Assembly: GCF_000002865.3 (NCBI RefSeq) | Contig: NW_001865042.1 | Location: 102,370 to 153,213, forward strand | Length of the DNA: 50,844 nt | Source: Monosiga brevicollis MX1 | Lineage: Eukaryota; Opisthokonta; Choanoflagellata; Craspedida; Salpingoecidae | Direction of reading: 5' to 3' | Shown: positions 19,438 through 46,546 of the stretch, piece by piece | How the letters are laid out: each line of letters begins with the position of its first letter | Numbering within the stretch: position 1 is the first letter of the stretch | Position numbers and translations under genes: made by a program | The notes under the pieces: generated by a model | The model's input: only the letters and a program-made list of their open reading frames with translations | The model's database searches: none | What the model was told of the DNA's origin: nothing

Positions 19438-20862
19438 TCAAGCCACACTTTTTTCATAGATGAGGTGGTTTTGCAGAGCTGCGTAGTCTGCGACGGCTGG
19501 ACCATGCGGCAGTTGAACGGCTTCGTTGACGCCCTGATCAGCGAGATTAACATAGGCGGGCGACCTCACTGCATTGACGTAGGCCGTGCTTTGAGGGCTA
19601 TTCATAACAATTGTCTGCACCGGTGGTGGGTGCGTGTCCACCTGCGCATATGTACTATGAGCAGCTGTTCCGGGCGGAAGGCTCGGAAGCTCAAATCCAT
19701 ACACGTCAGCATCTGTTTCATCCAAAGAGTTCAAGTGTGCGTTTCCAAGTGGCGGGGAGGAAGACGGCAGATTGGTAGTGTCAGCCACAGGTAGAAGGTA
19801 TGTGTCGTCGTCCTGAAGCAAAGACGGGTTCAGTGTCATGGATGATGGGCGAAATTGGGTTTCCGTGCGGGGGCGAAACTGGGTTTCAGAGCGCGGCCGA
19901 ATTTGGGTTTCTGAGCGCGGCCGGGTTTGTGTGTCCGACCGCGGGAGAACTTGGGTTCCTGAGCGTGAGCGAGCGGGCAGGTCCCGCCCGCCTTGCATAA
20001 CGTGCCAATTTTCCTTTGATGGACGATCAAACAGGGCTGGGGGTTGCTCTGTCATCGAGCCCGTGCCCGTATTCCTTGCGCCATGATGCGTGCTGCCCGA
20101 AGTGATGACCACGGTAAGAGGGGCCAAGAGCAAGTTGAGTTCATCGCGGAAGGAAGCAAGCTCCCGGTAGTCACAGACGACGGGGTGTGTTAGGGGTGTG
20201 TTGAAGAAGGTGCCGTTACTGCTCGAGTCGCAGCGATCGAGGACCTCCTCCATGTCATTGAACAAAAACACCTGATCTGTGTTTTGGCCCTTGGCGCGGC
20301 CAACAACCCGGAATCTGCCTCTGGAATCAAAGAAGGTGAGAAAGTGGAGGATGCGCTGGCCTAGAGGCTTGCCAGAAGAGCTGCTCTCGACGACCGAGGA
20401 GATGCAAAAGACGACCTCCTGGCCCTGGGTCTGCGGTTCCTTGACTCGCAACAAAAAAGTGCCAACCTCGCTGCAGGAGAGAAGACAAGACATGGCGGGG
20501 CGGGGGATGGTGGAGGCAGGGGCGAAGTGAGACGGCACGGCTAGCAAGGGAGGTGGGTCGAACGGGACGGCAGCGAGCCGACGGCAGGATTCAAATTCAT
20601 TCCTTGCTTTGCTTCCCGCCTCGGCTCTGCTCAGCTCAACGTACGGATTGTCGCTGGTATTGGCGATGCGGTGCACCACTTCTTCGCGGCTAATAGGGCC
20701 ATGAAAATGGTCGGGCATGCCGCTGGGAAAAGCAGCACGAATGGCTCGAGCCATGCGTACCTTGGGGGAAGCTTGAGGCGCCAGACCCAGGCACATGGCA
20801 ACCACCACGACCAGGGCCACCAGCACCACGGCGCCGCCGCTCACGGCTGTCATTGCATCCAT
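19438..20862 (-). CDS. Membrane-anchored SH2 protein with tyrosine-rich tail (paralogue A)
   Basis: Two exons, 20862-20645 and 20470-19438, give 416 residues; the ORF also runs through the intron, but splicing restores a continuous SH2 domain. A short N-terminus precedes one membrane span (about 8-26, AVVLVALVVVVAMCLG). A basic juxtamembrane stretch follows, then an SH2 domain starting FHGPISREE (about 52) with the phosphotyrosine-binding Arg in GTFLLRV (about 75-81). The canonical first Trp is absent. The tail has about five 8-residue RPRSETQ-like repeats and tyrosine motifs YLLP, YGFE, YAQV, YVNA, YVNL, YAAL and YEKS; YVNx fits the pYxN pattern bound by Grb2-type SH2 domains. There is no kinase domain. 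The predicted role is a membrane docking scaffold for tyrosine kinases; this is inference. The neighbouring gene upstream is a paralogue. Confidence 0.85.
   Translation of the reverse strand: MDAMTAVSGGAVVLVALVVVVAMCLGLAPQASPKVRMARAIRAAFPSGMPDHFHGPISREEVVHRIANTSDNPYVELSRAEAGSKARNEFESCRRLAAVPFDPPPLLAVPSHFAPASTIPRPAMSCLLSCSEVGTFLLRVKEPQTQGQEVVFCISSVVESSSSGKPLGQRILHFLTFFDSRGRFRVVGRAKGQNTDQVFLFNDMEEVLDRCDSSSNGTFFNTPLTHPVVCDYRELASFRDELNLLLAPLTVVITSGSTHHGARNTGTGSMTEQPPALFDRPSKENWHVMQGGRDLPARSRSGTQVLPRSDTQTRPRSETQIRPRSETQFRPRTETQFRPSSMTLNPSLLQDDDTYLLPVADTTNLPSSSPPLGNAHLNSLDETDADVYGFELPSLPPGTAAHSTYAQVDTHPPPVQTIVMNSPQSTAYVNAVRSPAYVNLADQGVNEAVQLPHGPAVADYAALQNHLIYEKSVA
19840..19985. repeat. 24-bp coding tandem repeat in SH2 paralogue A
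   Basis: About five or six degenerate 24-bp units encoding RPRSETQ plus one variable residue (units end T, I, F, F). On the + strand each unit shows GGGTTTC/T-GAGCGCGGCCG. The repeat lies in the tail between the SH2 domain and the tyrosine motifs. It is absent from paralogue B, so it arose after the duplication or was lost there. Confidence 0.85.
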
Positions 20863-22528
20863 CCCGACGCTTCGACTCAAAGCTCGCGCAAGAAGGAGGG
20901 GGAGGGGATGCGAGTCACGGACGGGACGTGCAAGCGCACAATGGAATCGTAGTCACGGTCAAGGGCACCGGCTGCCAAAACGTCGAGCGAGGGCGAGGCA
21001 GAGCCGCAACAGTTGCTCAAAACCCAACCATGCGCACGCCACGCACGATCCGCACAGCGTGTGTGTGTGTGCGTGTGCGTGTGCATGCGAAGGGCAAGTG
21101 CCACGGTGTACGAAGAAGCGAAGCGTCGTGCCAGGGAAGCAGTGCGCAGGATGAAAATGGAGTTTGCTTCAGCGGCTCGCCAGGCGAGCGCGACCGGAAA
21201 CGTGCTCGGCCGCCAACGTGACCCCGGTCTTGACGTTTACGTATAAGATTTCTATCCTCCACGTGTGATACTCCAAAGGTCATGTAATGTAAAACCCGTC
21301 AAATAGGTGTGGTTTTTGTCGTACCTATGTGTGGCGTGGCTAGCCATGTGTAACTGTTTTATGGGGCAAAAAGTGGTTTGGCGCTGTTGCAGCTGCTCCT
21401 CACGTTCTTCTTTTGTTCTCTGTGTGTGTGTATGTGTGACCTCTCTCTCTCTTTGACTTTGACTCTCTCTTGACTCTCTCTCGCTCTCTCGCTCTCTCGC
21501 TCTGTCGCTCTGTCGCTCTGTCGCTCTCTCTCTCTCTGTCTCTGTCCCTGTTCTCGGCTGTGCTCTGTTCCCGCGGCGCGAGAGCCATTCACCGCTACCG
21601 GCATTTGTTACAGCATGCCTGGCGTCGCACCTCTTTTCTTCTCATGCCCACCACCTGCCCACTCACAACTGTTTGCAACCATGCCGATTTGAGTCCGCCA
21701 ATCCCACAACAAAGCCCACACTCAACAATCAGCCTTGCCTACCATGAACACGACACCCTCAGCCATGTGGAACATTGCTTCATGACAATTGGAAACGCCG
21801 TCGGTCCCTGCCCCAGTTCCCTGCTGCTGGCTATGCCCACAGGCCCAAGACGACGTTGATGGGTGCCTTGCACACTTTTGTCACATGTCACAAGTCCGAA
21901 AGCCCGCCCGTTGTCGGTTGGCACCAATATGGTAGACGCGCATATGCCAAAGGTGTGCAGCATCATCAACAAACAGGCAATGCGACCGCCTATGCACATC
22001 TCTCAACTCGAGCGCTCAAGTCTGGGATGGTTGCCGGCGCGGGGACTGCAACAAACAACACAGAACAACCGAACAAATTTTTTTAAATAATTATTGTCAA
22101 TTCGCTCCTCTGGGTTACCCCACCGACCCCAAGCACCTGTGCGCGCATCACAGCAGTTTTACCCTTTTTGGCTCGTTCACCCCAAAAGCTTGAGGTTCAC
22201 TCCACCCTAAATTCTTTCCCACGCGACACAAAAGCAGGGCTAGGGTTACACACACTCCAGTCCGACGACAATCACGGTCAGAAAAAACCCACCATCCACC
22301 ACGTCCATTTCTCGCACCGTAACACACAACAAAGCATCCCAGCACAGGACTCGAGCCCCGTCCTTGCTCCCGGAAAAAGTCACTTGTTCACCGCATGACG
22401 TGTTCATCGACCGCAAAGCAGTTCGGAAGACGCAAGGAAATTGCCAGACAGTTTGAGCACAAGTCAGAAAGTCAATTAAGAGTGAAATGAGCAGGTAGGT
22501 AGGTGGTCTTAAAGTCGCGGTGATGGCC
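20863..22528. other. 1.67-kb spacer between the SH2 paralogues
   Basis: Promoter side of paralogue A and 3' side of paralogue B. A GT/GC tract lies near 21060-21085 and an imperfect CT-rich tract at about 21440-21545, part of it CGCTCT/GTCGCT units. Small open frames are scattered, but none has splice-linked partners or a recognisable domain. Confidence 0.6.
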
Positions 22529-24078
22529 TCACGCACGACTATTCTGATAGGTTGCATGCTCATCCAGCGATGCGTAGCTTATTGCAAGCTGACGAGCCGT
22601 CTGGGCAGAATCATCGCGCGACATGGATAAACGGGATTGGGTGAGATAGCTGCTAAAAGCCTCGTTAACTTTTTTGGGGGGAGTAGCCCAAATCGGGTCG
22701 TCGACTTGCGCGTAGGCGCTGCTGCGAGAAACCGCGGGTTGTTCTAGATCAGCTGGCCGCCTGCTGATACTCCCAGACAGCATTGGTCTGCTTGAAGCAG
22801 CCCCAACTTGAGTAGGTGCAGCCGTGGCCTCATGCCGGTTCGCCTCTTTGCCCATGAGGTGGATAGGCACATCGACATACTCTTGGGTGCTCGGTTTGGC
22901 CTTGGCGGGCCGGCTAGCGCCAAAGACAGCGCGATGGTCCGTTACTTCCGGCATGCCATGGACCTGACTCGTGGCATGGATAGATGTATTGATATACTGA
23001 TGGGGTTTCGTTTTGGCCTTGGCGGGCCGGTTAGTGCCAAACACAGTGCGGTGGTCCGTGGCGTCTGGCATGTCTATGGCCTGGCTCGCGTCTGTCGCCT
23101 GCAGCGCGTGTGAGTTGCCCAATGGCGGGGACGACGACCTTGGCTCGGGGATTTGAAATAACGGCGTCACGTATACATCCCTGTTTGTCCTTAACGGGCC
23201 GGATGCCGGTGCCTGTAAGCTAGCACTGTCATCTGTCTCGTGGGTCTGAACGTCGATAGCGTGCCATACGGGTGCGGGCGCCAAGCTCGTCGTGGCATTC
23301 TCGGGAGCTTGCTGTGGAGACGGCTGGGAGTTGGATGTAATGACCACGGTGAGGGGGGCCAAAAGCTCGTTGAGCTCATCGCGGAAGGCAGAAAGCTCTC
23401 GATAGTCACAGGCTACGGGATGCGTGAGCGGTGTGTCAAAAAAAGAGTCGTCGTCGTTGGAGCCACACCGACTGAGTACCTCCTCCATGCTATTGAACAA
23501 AAACACTTCATCCTTGGCTTGGCCCTTGGCACGGCCAACCACTCGAAACTTGCCCTTGGCGTTGAAAAAGGCAAGAAAATGGAGGACGCGCTGGGCCAGT
23601 GGCTTGCCAGAGGCGCTGCTTTCAACAACGGAGGAAATGCAAAAGACCACCTCATGCTGGTGTTCCTGTGGCTCCTTGACACGCAACAGAAATGCACCCT
23701 CCGGGCTGCACAAGGCACGGTGTAACGAGAAGAAGAGAGGTGAGACGAGCCGCCGGTAGAGGTGATCAGTCAGCGAGCAGGCGTGGCTGCTGCCTGTTTC
23801 CTGTGGTTTGGGTGGACAACATCGTTTCCACAGATCAGCACGAGCGAATCAACAACGTACGGATCGCCGCCATATGCGGCAATGCGACTGATGGTCACGT
23901 CGCGGTTGATGGGGCCATGAAAGAAAATAGGCATGCCGTTTGGGAAGGCACGACGAATGGCGCGCGCCATGCGCTTTTTGGGTGGCACGTTCCGACCTTG
24001 ACCCAGACACATGGCGACCGCCACAACCAAGGCAACGAGCACCACGCCCCCTCCACCCAGACCCATGAGAACATCCAT
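22529..24078 (-). CDS. Membrane-anchored SH2 protein with tyrosine-rich tail (paralogue B)
   Basis: Two exons, 24078-23861 and 23705-22529; 464 residues. Exon 1 is 218 nt, the same length as in paralogue A, and the donor sequence (CC|GTACGTTG) and split proline codon are also shared. The order is the same: membrane span (GVVLVALVVAVAMCLG), basic KKRMARAIRR stretch, SH2 with FHGPINRD and GAFLLRV, the conserved FRVVGRAKGQ and FLFNSMEEVL blocks, then a divergent tail. The tail carries two copies of a roughly 39-residue unit and tyrosine motifs YVTP, YINT, YVDV, YAQV, YLTQ, YASL and YQNS. YINT is again pYxN. No catalytic domain is present. Probably a receptor-like or adaptor scaffold at the membrane. 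Confidence 0.85.
22850..23071. repeat. Two ~39-codon tandem units in SH2 paralogue B
   Basis: Coding repeat. Each unit opens MP(D/E)(A/V)TDHR(T/A)VFG, continues RPAKAK, and ends in a Tyr motif (YINTSIH in one, YVDVPIH in the other). The duplication therefore doubled a candidate phosphotyrosine site. Confidence 0.85.
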
Positions 24079-28283: not shown

Positions 28284-31174
28284 AGCGCAGCACAAAACAA
28301 CATCATCTCAAGTCAAACCTGAAGGAATGGATGCTGCAAAGCAGCCTCCACCGTCAGCCGCTGGGAAGGATCCAGCACCAAGAGCTTGGACACCATGTCC
28401 TTGGCTATTCATGTCCATGGCCGGTAAGTATGTCATCAAAACTTCTGGGTCAACCAAGACACAAAGATGTTACGTACCCGAGTCACTTATGTCATCCCAG
28501 TACGGCTCCAAGAATGTATATGTCCCCGCTGTTTTCGTGGCGCAGAAGCCAATGTGAGCGCCAGTACTTTTGACGATGAGTTGCAGAGATGGAAGCATCG
28601 TGCACTTACTTAAAATCTGTTCTGCCAGGCTAAGGTCAGTGCTCAGATCCTCTGAAAAGGGAGGAAAACCACACAGCCTGCGCAAAAAAGTGGTGGTTGT
28701 GAGTTCGGCATTGCTGTTTTTCAGTTGGAAAAAAGAATTGGAAACAAACGAAAAAAGGTTGGCGCGTACATGATGTAGAGAATCACTCCCAAGCTCCACA
28801 TGTCAGCGGCTTTACCGTAGCCCTGCCAGGCAACATAATTCCCGTGAGCTGGCGGCTGCCTGGAACATTTACATCGGCGTTTGCATGGGTCAGAACGTGT
28901 CAGCCACACCTCTTCCTGGCAACGGTCCGTCATTTTGAGCACTTCGGGGGCTTGGTAGCTACGTGGAGGTAGCCAACACAGATGAGAACGGGGCTGTCGA
29001 GCAATGACTTTGGAATTCATAAGCAGGTGTGGTTGTCTCTTGGGAAATGGCTGACCTGGGAGTGCCACACATGGTTTTCATAAAGGACTGTGGGCCCACA
29101 AGCTTGGCAAGTCCGAAATCCGTAATCTAGAGTGGCAGACAAATGAGACCCGCGGAAGGGTGCTCTGAAATCACTAAAGCTGGTTAGCGAGGACAGGGCC
29201 ACACGGCTGGCACCTTGATCAGAGAGTCGTCACTCTTGCTGGTGAGGAGAATGTTCTCTGGCTTGAGATCTCGGTGAGCAATGTTTTGGCTGCCAAAAGG
29301 ATACGCATGGCCAGATGCAAGTTTAGGCACAAACGAAGCGGAAAGAGAGGCCCCGTTCTGCTTTGCAGATGTGGGAACAGGACAAAACAGCAAGACGCAC
29401 TCGTGAAGATACTTGACCGCATCCAACATTTGCAGGAAGTAGAATTTGGACACGTCCTCGGAAAACTTCTCCTTGTCGACGATGCGATCAAAGAGTTCGC
29501 CACCAGACGCTCTAGTGAGGTGGAAGAAAAGATGAAAGAAAAGAGGCGTCAGGGTTGAACCTTCTAAACACACCCAGTAGGGGGGCACCAAAGCAAATGG
29601 AGTTTGCCACGTACAACTCGAGTACAATGTACAGGTGAGAAGGTGTATTCTCCACGTCGTGTACGTGGATGACGTTGGGCTGTTGGTCAGTTGATCAGGC
29701 GGAAAGAAGTGAAGCGAGATACAGGTGAGGGTTGCGAGAGCAAGGGGAATTATGGGCTTGTGGCCAGACAGTTAGAAGAGCATACATGGTTGATTTTGAG
29801 AAGGATATCAACCTCGGCCATGACTTGTGCATCCGAAACTCCAATGGACGAGCCCTACACATCGCAGCAGAATTGAGAGCCAAAAATTCAAGTCTATTGC
29901 ACTGCGAGGTAGGCAAAATGACCTAAAACAGGGCGGCGGGCTTACCACGGTGGAGGTGAACTTGCGCTTGGAAATGATTTTGACGGCGTACTTGCGACCG
30001 GTGCGCTTGTCGATGGCAAGATGTACTTCGCCACAGGCACCGGTGCCCAGAGGTTTTGTAAGGTTGTACCGGTCCTCGATGGCCGGATGCGATGACTGCA
30101 TGCTTGACTGGCCCATGTGAAACACGTAGCGCGGCGCTGCGTTGTCGCGAGCAAAGACCGAACCAGTCAAGAGTCGGGGGCGGAAATAACAGAGATAGGA
30201 CACCCAAACACGGACACGGACACGGACACGGACACGGACACGGACACGGACACGGACACGGACACGGACACGGACACGGACACGGACACGGGTACGGGCA
30301 CGGGCACGGACGCAGACGCAGACTTTGACGCAGACGCAGACTTTGACGCAGACGCAGACACGGACACGGACACGGACACGGACAATATCTGGTTTTCTTG
30401 CCCTGAGTCAGCTCGATGAGGGCGTTGTGGCGAAGGACGACATGATTGCCTTTGCCCACGCGCTGATTGTCAACAAAAGTGCCATTGCTGCTGGTATCCG
30501 TGAGCTTGACTACAACTCGTCCTCATCGTACTGCGAATAGGCTTCCTTGGGTCGCTCCTGTACAAGAGAACACGGCCATGTGGGAACAAGTCAAAGAAAA
30601 AAAAAAAGAAAAAAAAAAGGAGAGACAAACAGAAAAGAAATCAAGTCATCAAGTCCACTCGAGGGGGGGGGGCAGAGAGGATCGGGATCTAGGTGAGAGA
30701 CCTACGCGGCGGATGGTGCAATGCCGATTACTAATGGCAGGGTCAGTAAACTTGATGGTGCAGGTGGCATGGCGACCAAAGGAGTACTCGTCCTCCACAA
30801 GCTCTAAGGGGTGGAGGGGGTGGAGGGGGAGAGGGCAGGTAAGAAAAAAGGTCGACGCGGCCAAGAAGAGAGAGAGAGAGAGGGAGAGAGAAGGGGCAGT
30901 GTCAGATCACGGAGGTGCGGCGAGGCTACCGATGAGATCAAAACCCGGACGATCTGGCAGCAGTTTGCCCCAAGCCGTGTTGACGGGTTCTTCGTCTTCA
31001 CTGAGTCCCAGCTAGAAAAAAGAAAAAAGGGTCGAGACAATAAAGTGTTGACGGTGAGCACTGCTCCGACGAGCGAGGGGGCGGCTGCCAAACATTGCGG
31101 GAGAGAATGGGCACACACGTTGTCGTCATCGACCACAAAGTCTGAGGCAGCGTCGGGTCGAGGTTACCCGCCAT
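28025..31174 (-). CDS. CHEK2: CHEK2-type checkpoint kinase (FHA + Ser/Thr kinase), about 16 exons, apparent frameshift
   Basis: DNA-damage checkpoint kinase of the CHK2/Rad53 family. Exons after the uncertain first: 31011-30930, 30803-30706, 30557-30384, 30136-29946, 29854-29786, 29679-29615, 29511-29401, 29289-29214, 29126-29056, 28958-28910, 28822-28770, 28677-28610, 28528-28478, 28404-28319, 28186-28025. FHA: EYSFGRHATCT, ISNRHCTIRR, LTDTSSNGTFVDNQRVGKGN. Kinase: Gly-loop LGTGACGEV, VAIK-type Lys in YAVKIISKRKF, HRDLKPEN, DFG in ITDFGLAK, activation loop MKTMCGTPSYQAPE, GVILYIMLCGFPPFSE. The basic tail AKRAKDQ may be a nuclear signal. The exon 30557-30384 has an in-frame TAG at 30512-30510 and is one base short of the length needed to join its neighbours. 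The start at 31174 is tentative. No SQ/TQ cluster is seen. AATAAA overlaps the stop. Confidence 0.88.
28248..28282. repeat. Poly-A run in the last CHEK2 intron
   Basis: About 35 A residues on the + strand (T on the coding strand) in the intron before the final CHEK2 exon. It is followed, towards that exon, by a normal acceptor. Confidence 0.95.
30205..30385. repeat. (ACGGAC)n hexanucleotide minisatellite in a CHEK2 intron
   Basis: About 180 bp of ACGGAC units with GCAGAC and GGGTAC variants. On the coding strand the repeat reads (GTCCGT)n. It starts exactly where the FHA exon ends, so its first GT is the most likely donor. The long Asp-Thr, His-Gly and Ser-Val frames across it are artefacts. 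Confidence 0.9.
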
Positions 31175-44521: not shown

Positions 44522-45736
44522 TCACTGGACCGTATCGTAGCCACTACGCTTGTGTGAGGAGCCATAACGCAAGTAGGCGAAAAAGCCAAGGAGAACAACG
44601 AAAAGACCACCCATGACACCGCCTGCTACGGCCCCAGCGTAGCGTTTGGAGCTGTGCTTGTTCGAGGCGGGAACGCACTCTGGCACTTGTGAATGGGGCA
44701 CAAACTGTAGAGTACCACCCTGTGGTGGATGCTCGCAGGACGAGGCCGTCCCGGTGATGTGCTCAGTGCAATTTTGACATGCCCCGCCCACCAGTTGACA
44801 GTGGCGCTTCAAGACATAGGTGCCAGCTGTACCAATGTAGCTCAACTGGTATGCAGAGCCATCAGAGGATTTTCTGCACGTGTCATCGGGTGAGCCGAGA
44901 TTGGTGATGTTGCTGTTGGATGCCGAGCTGCAGGTGTTGGAGGTTGGGAAATTGACCGCGAACACGCTTGAGAGGTCGGATTGTGTCTGATTGGTAGCGG
45001 GCGAGGCACAGATCTGACTGGAGTTGGTGAAGAGGAAAGAAAGCTGCTCGCCCGTGCTGATAGGGATGCAGGTTTTGTAGTTGACGTTGCTCTCGTCCAG
45101 GTCGCAATTGTTGCAATGATGATCAACGCAGTAGAAGCGAGCGATGACCAGTCTTTGGTGGGCGGGGTCCAAAGCCAGCTGATAGTAATGGCCAGTCGCG
45201 CTGAGTCGGCACGAGGTGTTGGTTTCCGCCACACTAGCCACGATCGCGGCTTGATCCAGCCCCACGCCAATGCTACAATCACGACTTGGAAAGATGTGCA
45301 CGTAAGCCTGTCGACGAGCAGGGTCTGGCTTTGGTGTTGGTGCCACCGTCGTCGTCGTTGTCACATCCGGGGTTGTCGTCGTCACATTCGGGCTTGTCGT
45401 CGTCACATTGTTGTGCGCTGTGGTGGTCGTCGTTGCCTCTGAGGTTGTCGTCGTTGCCTCTGAGGTTGTCGTTTGGCCCGTCGAGGTAGCCGTTGTACCA
45501 TTCTCGTGCCCTGTGGTCGTGGTCGTCGCCACTGTCGTCGTCGTGTTCGGTTCAACCGTGCTGATCGTCACCGTGGCGGTGGTTGACGTTGACACGTTTG
45601 AAGAAGCCGCCACGGCCGCCCCCGTGGGCTCGATCTTTCCAACCGCTAACCCAGCAGCCGAAGCAAGCACACCATACAGCATGAGCGCCACCCATATCCA
45701 ACGAGTCGACCATCTCGTCCTGCTTGCCACTGCCAT
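44522..45736 (-). CDS. Type I membrane protein with mucin-like Thr-rich region, intronless
   Basis: 404 residues from the first true ATG, which sits directly before a basic-then-hydrophobic signal peptide (RWSTRWIWVALMLYGVLASAAG). A Thr-rich stretch (about 40-130) with TTTT/TSEATT units should be heavily O-glycosylated. It is followed by two similar Cys-containing segments (about 145-260 and 265-350), each with CXXC-like pairs such as HCNNC and ACQNC and many N-X-S/T sites. One membrane span (GAVAGGVMGGLFVVLLGFFAYL) precedes a short tail ending YDTVQ, a candidate phosphotyrosine or PDZ-type terminus. I do not recognise the Cys-rich modules. The two may be copies of one domain. A cell-surface or coat protein is the plain reading. 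Confidence 0.8.
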   Translation of the reverse strand: MAVASRTRWSTRWIWVALMLYGVLASAAGLAVGKIEPTGAAVAASSNVSTSTTATVTISTVEPNTTTTVATTTTTGHENGTTATSTGQTTTSEATTTTSEATTTTTAHNNVTTTSPNVTTTTPDVTTTTTVAPTPKPDPARRQAYVHIFPSRDCSIGVGLDQAAIVASVAETNTSCRLSATGHYYQLALDPAHQRLVIARFYCVDHHCNNCDLDESNVNYKTCIPISTGEQLSFLFTNSSQICASPATNQTQSDLSSVFAVNFPTSNTCSSASNSNITNLGSPDDTCRKSSDGSAYQLSYIGTAGTYVLKRHCQLVGGACQNCTEHITGTASSCEHPPQGGTLQFVPHSQVPECVPASNKHSSKRYAGAVAGGVMGGLFVVLLGFFAYLRYGSSHKRSGYDTVQ

Positions 45737-46546
45737 CGTGCCGGTGTTCAATGTGATTCGAGCGTGCCGCGTATTGCAAATTGGCTGGCCTTGCAGAGAG
45801 CTGCTCAAAAATGACTGCAACCTGAAGAGATTTGTCCAGAAGGGAAGCTGAAGTCAGAGATGCTTTTAAAGTCGTAGCTTTTTCCTTAGTAAAACTGTAG
45901 GCTGAAGCAGAGATGTGAACGAGACATCCCTTTCCATCAGAGACACCTTTAAACCCATGGTTGTCGGTCAGAGATCTTGCAGGAGAACCTCTTCTTCAAA
46001 TACCACAACAACACGACACGAATGTCAGATGAAATAATTGGTTATCGTCACTGTTTTACTTCACCGCCCTCCTGGCGACGACAGGACCAGCTCGGCGCAG
46101 TCAGCGCAGCTCGGCCCTTATCGGCTCAGCTCGGCTCGGATCGGATTGTTTGGGCTTTGAAATCAGCCCAATCTCGGCAAGCTGTTGAACCAGCAACGCA
46201 TCGACCACGTATGTACTACACACATAAATTTTCCTGCCTTTTTTTTTATTTGCATGATCGGAATGATGATGCTGAGGTTTGTTGCTCACCGCCGACGCCG
46301 CATGGATGGGTAGCTGCACGCAATATGCCCAAGCGGTAGGAGACGTTCACCAGCATTACAGGCTAGAGCTGGATGATTGGAGCCCCTTCAGCAAGAGAAG
46401 CATCCCTCATCAAGCCTGACCCGGTCATTATTTATGACGTGATTCTCCCCATCACGGCCATGGCTTCTTCCCTGCGAGACCGGTCTGTGCCATGTCGCTG
46501 CTCGATTGCATGAAAATTACGGCACGCTTCCTTGGGCCTTACGGAT
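45737..46546. other. 810-bp divergent spacer
   Basis: Promoter region shared by the Thr-rich protein and the coiled-coil gene. Repeated CAGAGAT-like words occur at about 45855-45975 and GCTCGGC/CAGCTCGG words at 46088-46145. No gene is seen. Confidence 0.45.

Follow-up and report, generated by a model that had tools for sequence, protein, structure and literature searches.

Membrane-spanning proteins with an SH2 domain close to the span have been described in choanoflagellates. In the passages of the two papers considered here, gene model 11339 of Monosiga brevicollis is a cadherin-type transmembrane (TM) SH2 protein (PMC3082566), and a Choanoeca perplexa protein carries a Protocadherin domain, a span and an intracellular SH2 domain (PMC6040629). 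Here we report two neighbouring minus-strand paralogs of M. brevicollis MX1 that are predicted to combine a membrane span, a basic stretch, a divergent SH2 domain and a long tail with tyrosine motifs, with practically no ectodomain. They lie in a stretch of 50,844 nucleotides, hereafter the window (contig NW_001865042.1, positions 102,370 to 153,213; C53:102370-153213 in the 39.5-Mb, 57-contig genome). The interval that an earlier sequence-only reading had assigned to the pair, 19438..24078 of the window, proved exact: the ATG of the upstream gene (gene 2) is at 24078, and the stop codon of the downstream gene (gene 1) ends at 19438.

Our preferred reading, to which we give a probability of about 0.6, is that both genes would encode cytosol-facing, LAT-like membrane phosphotyrosine adaptors that carry an SH2 domain of their own and have practically no ectodomain. 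The same reading of the letters had put forward a membrane-fixed phosphotyrosine adaptor; the sequence supports that idea as well as the combination of span, basic stretch, SH2-like domain, tyrosine tail and no kinase. Cis or trans assembly through the proteins' own tails, which it also suggested, is possible.

Gene models and predicted membrane anchor

Genes 1 and 2 encode proteins of 416 and 464 residues and have one intron apiece (all coordinates of the pair are on the minus strand). In gene 2, exon 1 (23861..24078) contains the start, the membrane span, the basic stretch and the beginning of the SH2-like domain; after a phase 2, GT..AG intron of 155 nt (23706..23860), exon 2 (22529..23705) supplies the remainder of the domain and the tail, including the stop codon. 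Gene 1 is built in the same way, with exon 1 at 20645..20862, a phase 2, GT..AG intron of 174 nt at 20471..20644, and exon 2, again ending in the stop codon, at 19438..20470. As had been noticed before, exon 1 is 218 nt long in both genes and the donors are identical (CC at the exon end, followed by GTACGTTG). The acceptors, CTGCAG and GTGCAG, are our own choice, as other AG sites also leave the frame open; these two were picked because the SH2 sequence then joins at the same place in both genes. The exons flanking the intron align between the genes free of gaps, and similarity between the introns themselves is weak at most (alignment score 91.5, against a mean of 64.2 and a maximum of 96 in 200 shuffles). 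The gene 1 intron is open in frame, so its retention would put 58 extra residues into the SH2-like domain. Both gene structures are open and spliceable; we infer the splicing itself from the sequence.

Homology between the two genes sets in at the ATG. Before it, each of ten 12-base blocks has only 2-5 matching bases; of five such blocks after it, four have 8-10 matching bases and one has 5. In-frame stop codons lie 31 and 16 codons upstream of the two ATGs. Both this onset of homology and the closed frames ahead of it speak against an overlooked exon for an ectodomain. Over the 300 bases upstream and the 300 bases downstream of the genes, similarity stays within the range of 100 shuffles, and none of four polyadenylation hexamers was found within 400 bases downstream.

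Each protein has a single predicted span at residues ~9-28 (23995..24054 in gene 2, 20779..20838 in gene 1), preceded by about eight residues if the ATG is taken as the start. Its Kyte-Doolittle hydropathy, given as the maximum over 19 residues, is 2.92 in gene 1 and 2.56 in gene 2, and past residue 60 the value never rises above 1.27. Net charge is -1 over residues 1-9 of both proteins and +4 (gene 1) or +7 (gene 2) over residues 27-47, which bears out the proposed order of a span followed by a basic stretch. By the positive-inside rule, the positively charged flank of a span lies on the cytosolic side; given this charge bias, the SH2-like domain, which follows about 24 residues after the span, would face the cytosol, and the predicted topology has the N-terminus outside and the C-terminus inside. 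A cysteine near the inner end of the span, C24, is kept in both proteins and is a candidate palmitoylation site.

The divergent SH2 domain and the age of the pair

The SH2-like domain occupies residues 48-172 of both proteins and is interrupted by the intron in both genes (23408..23937 in gene 2, 20173..20721 in gene 1). Its assignment is carried by profile comparison: when the two-gene profile was aligned by hhalign with 18 SH2 domains native to this genome, the probability was 95.9, with an E-value of 5.5e-9 and a score of 47.5 over residues 52-131. The last SH2 helix falls outside this aligned part. None of 300 column shuffles reached that score (mean 11.0, maximum 20.7), and profiles of single genes gave E-values of 2.1e-8 (gene 1) and 7.2e-7 (gene 2). 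A hidden Markov model of 18 same-genome SH2 domains scored both genes at about 10 bits, aligning the part that reads FHGPI-R...FLLRV. Both paralogs have R59, R81 and H115, aligned with an arginine, an arginine and a histidine of the native domains; we take these to be the arginine of alpha-A, the FLLR arginine and the histidine of beta-D. The profile result upholds the earlier claim of an SH2 domain that keeps its FLLR arginine in both genes, and the claim that neither has a kinase domain agrees with Pfam, which gave no kinase match in either gene. An 11-residue insertion stands ahead of the strand that bears the histidine. When 25 native SH2 domains were ranked by similarity, the one at locus L015 came top for both genes and the runners-up differed, so we draw no kinship from the ranking.

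Several results weigh against this assignment. The Pfam SH2 family matches gene 1 only below its cut-off (14.6 bits against 21, E 0.035) and does not match gene 2. Compared with sequences from the PDB at E-values up to 10, the two-sequence profile found just PTK6 (E 0.22) and HSH2D (E 0.67), both aligned in their SH2 sequence and neither significant alone. The tryptophan that usually opens SH2 domains is replaced by histidine or phenylalanine in the pair, and the residue two past the FLLR arginine, a serine in 21 of the 25 native domains, is lysine in both proteins; with these two positions replaced, affinity may be weak or altered. AlphaFold models built from three and two alignment rows were of low confidence, with a mean predicted local distance difference test (pLDDT) of 38.2 and 48.3. 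A PDB fold search with the 38.2 model listed no SH2 domain, a result that we treat as uninformative. The elements of that model stand in an order that fits an SH2 domain: a helix, five strands and a last helix, with an additional helix, which falls within the unspliced intron, after the first. We regard the region as a divergent SH2 domain that is backed by sequence comparison and not by structure.

The pair had been called a recent duplication, a view contradicted by its synonymous divergence. As estimated with our own script by the Nei-Gojobori method, dS (synonymous divergence) is 1.21 over residues 1-197, which is close to saturation, and dN/dS (the ratio of nonsynonymous to synonymous divergence) is 0.17. 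The SH2-like domain gives 1.36 and 0.17, with a dN/dS of 0.13 for its part in exon 2, and residues 173-197, a mere 25 codons, give a dS of 0.72. These values describe an old gene pair of which both members have been maintained, a dN/dS near 0.17 implying that purifying selection keeps both genes. Genome searches with the SH2 part of gene 1 exon 2, gene 2 exon 1 and gene 2 exon 2 as queries returned these two genes and no further copies.

Tyrosine tails and neighbouring features

The tails, residues 198-416 of gene 1 (19441..20097) and 198-464 of gene 2 (22532..23332), have seven tyrosines each. Taking as a motif any tyrosine past residue 197 in the context YxxΦ (Φ = L, I, M, V or F) or YxN, we find four of seven in gene 1 (Y347, Y370, Y379, Y402) and five of seven in gene 2 (Y310, Y349, Y404, Y450, Y459). 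Tails with tyrosine motifs are therefore present as the sequence-only reading had said, and its count of six or seven per protein was too high. Just past the SH2-like domain and outside these counts, both proteins have Y174 in a YxxΦ motif (YREL). The combined nine of 14 was reached in one of 5000 shuffles, and the gene 2 count alone in 15 of 5000. Because the tails are homologous at some motif sites, the two counts are not independent.

Aligned locally, the tails give a best score of 70, which two of 1000 shuffles attained, and the best chain consists of three collinear islands. Island 1 lies at 19735..19806 in gene 1 and 23108-23179 in gene 2, island 2 at 19636..19674 (with YAQVD at Y347) and 22700-22738, and the C-terminal island 3 at 19441..19485 (with YAAL at Y402) and 22532-22576 (with YASL at Y450). 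Together they pair Y297 with Y251, Y347 with Y404, Y402 with Y450 and Y411 with Y459, and four paired tyrosines occurred in none of 500 tail shuffles. Two tail results fall on the unfavourable side: the gene 1 motif count by itself does not clearly exceed what chance gives (294 of 5000 shuffles reach it), and the chain score is only weakly so, with 17 of 500 shuffles as high. With a weak chain score and a pairing of four tyrosines in 0 of 500 shuffles, the weight lies in the coincidence of the islands with tyrosine.

A tandem repeat in the gene 1 tail (19847..19966; repeat family D6) has a 24-nt unit encoding eight residues that read like RPRSETQ. The gene 2 tail has a doubled unit (22860..23088; repeat family D7), with two copies at a spacing of 117 nt and one tyrosine in each (YINT, YVDV). 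From these repeats it appears that the tails diverged partly by internal duplication. Four of the five octapeptide copies of gene 1 also fit RxRxxS/T, which we take to be a basophilic kinase pattern.

Elsewhere in the window, an open reading frame at 44522-45853 (minus strand) has a signal-like start, a threonine-rich stretch, a span-like stretch and a short tail that ends in GYDTVQ, of YxxΦ type; Pfam gave no match to it. At 29184-30522, on the same strand, FHA and protein kinase matches stand in adjoining open frames with simple repeats between them, the order of a CHK2-type kinase.

Proposed function, alternatives and known systems

A six-frame Pfam scan of the genome for SH2 gave 114 matches, with all 142 candidates scored, and none of them lies inside the window. 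A plain six-frame domain search thus misses both genes, and choanoflagellate phosphotyrosine inventories that were built in this way are probably incomplete. The cadherin scan gave 150 matches (150 of 288 candidates scored), and at three places a cadherin match and an SH2 match share a strand, some 2.5 kb from each other: C30:285886-288597, C34:62786-65515 and C55:2085275-2088007. At each place the two matches sit in open frames of equal length, 2002, 1678 and 1667 residues respectively. The C30 frame is stop-free and has a span (hydropathy 3.41), a basic stretch and an SH2 domain 46 residues after the span. C34 and C55, with frames of similar length and an identical SH2 score, look like copies of each other. 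Among 28 SH2 loci surveyed, which hold part of the 114 matches, none had a same-frame hydrophobic stretch (mean of at least 2.2 over 19 residues) upstream of its SH2 domain; at 17 of the 28, such a stretch was found no more than 2 kb upstream in one frame or another, many of these stretches being in simple repeats. The C30 case is outside the surveyed set.

Two other SH2 loci of the genome have recognizable surroundings. At L023 (3300-5200, minus strand), the sequence upstream of the SH2 domain reads like the end of a myosin motor and an IQ motif. At L018, the SH2 domain lies in an open frame with SH3-like sequence ahead of it, and a kinase match follows downstream on the same strand, an arrangement that we take to resemble a Src-type kinase.

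The sequence-only reading had held that an SH2 domain fixed beside its own span sets these proteins apart from most animal SH2 proteins, which are cytosolic. The anatomy stands, and its distinctiveness is weakened: a span beside an SH2 domain is already known in choanoflagellates from the cadherin-type proteins, and it occurs elsewhere in this genome, at C30. What is new in the pair is the predicted lack of an ectodomain together with a candidate docking tail, which makes it a variant of the described transmembrane SH2 proteins. This architecture is not described in the passages considered from PMC3507883, PMC3082566, PMC6040629, PMC4265756 and PMC4054682, which is weak evidence for novelty.

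We propose that each protein is a single-pass membrane adaptor with its basic juxtamembrane stretch and SH2 domain on the cytosolic side. The SH2 domain would dock on a phosphotyrosine of a receptor or partner in the same membrane, tyrosine kinases would phosphorylate the tail at YAQV, YVNL/YVNA/YINT and YAAL/YASL, and the phosphorylated tail would then recruit other SH2 proteins. At C47, C26 and C35 of this genome, SH2 matches adjoin kinase-domain matches on the same strand; the scan for a kinase family that includes tyrosine kinases gave 169 matches with 135 of 686 candidates scored, and the family also matches nine of 14 prokaryote controls. A bolder version, in which the SH2 domains bind the phosphorylated tail of their own or sister protein in trans and so build self-assembling membrane clusters with no multivalent cytosolic adaptor, is possible on the anatomy, and we consider it doubtful. 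If true, such self-assembly would make the pair a minimal, pre-animal equivalent of the LAT-Grb2-SOS condensate.

The chief competing reading of the tail is sorting by clathrin adaptors: in single-pass proteins, a cytosolic YxxΦ motif is the classical tyrosine-based sorting signal, and two of the three shared islands carry YAQV and YAAL/YASL. The proteins would then be trafficking cargo or cargo adaptors whose motifs serve mainly in the unphosphorylated state, with the SH2 domain coupling kinase activity to endocytosis. YVNA, YINT and YQNS are of YxN type with no hydrophobic residue at +3, however, and an SH2 domain in the same chain points to the use of phosphotyrosine; we hold sorting as the principal role to be unlikely, and the sorting and adaptor readings can both be true. 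A loss of phosphotyrosine binding, which would leave the SH2-like domain as a structural or phosphorylation-independent module, would agree with its divergent sequence, its weak Pfam score and the lysine two past the FLLR arginine. It appears distinctly less probable than sorting, as the alpha-A arginine, the FLLR arginine and the beta-D histidine are kept in both proteins at a dS of about 1.2, and one of the 25 native SH2 domains also has lysine at that position.

Two further alternatives concern the N-terminus. The genes might be the 3' parts of larger receptors resembling the cadherin frames at C30, C34 and C55, with the ectodomain encoded by overlooked exons further upstream. The onset of paralog similarity at the ATG and the upstream stop codons speak against this, and Pfam found no match above its cut-off in three longer minus-strand open reading frames that overlap the upstream stretches, nor in the 30-codon stretch preceding the gene 1 ATG. 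No cadherin match was found by Pfam in the two genes or in those four upstream stretches, nor on contig C53 among the 150 of 288 candidates scored, and we think truncated receptors improbable, to much the same degree as a non-binding domain. The hydrophobic stretch could instead be a cleaved signal peptide, which would make the SH2-like domain and tail secreted or luminal; it starts near residue 9 and small residues follow it. A stretch with no positive charge before it and +4 or +7 after it looks like an anchor that leaves the C-terminus on the inner side, and the domain that follows is typically intracellular, so this is the least credible of the alternatives. We thus retain the membrane phosphotyrosine adaptor as the preferred reading. 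With a single membrane-fixed chain holding both the reader domain and candidate docking sites, the pair would offer a compact test case for phosphotyrosine scaffolds outside animals.

Compared with known systems, the pair shares parts with three of them. The cadherin- and protocadherin-type TM-SH2 proteins likewise have a membrane span of their own with an SH2 domain closely after it; they have a cadherin-type ectodomain, whereas the pair has practically none and carries a long tyrosine tail. The HSH2D and SH2D2A (TSAd) adaptors also place a tail with tyrosines after the SH2 domain, but are cytosolic and lack a span, whereas the pair is predicted to be membrane-anchored; HSH2D was the sole match in a separate search (E 0.12), which with the E-value of 0.67 given above is too weak to claim kinship. 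Adaptors of the LAT, NTAL and PAG type, membrane proteins of human immune cells, resemble the pair in their minimal ectodomain, single span, cysteine near its inner end and long tail of YxN and YxxΦ motifs, and differ in having no SH2 domain. Pfam, the sole comparison made, shows no homology of the pair to these adaptors; with an SH2-like domain in its predicted cytosolic part, the pair is not classed among them, and it is LAT-like by analogy only.

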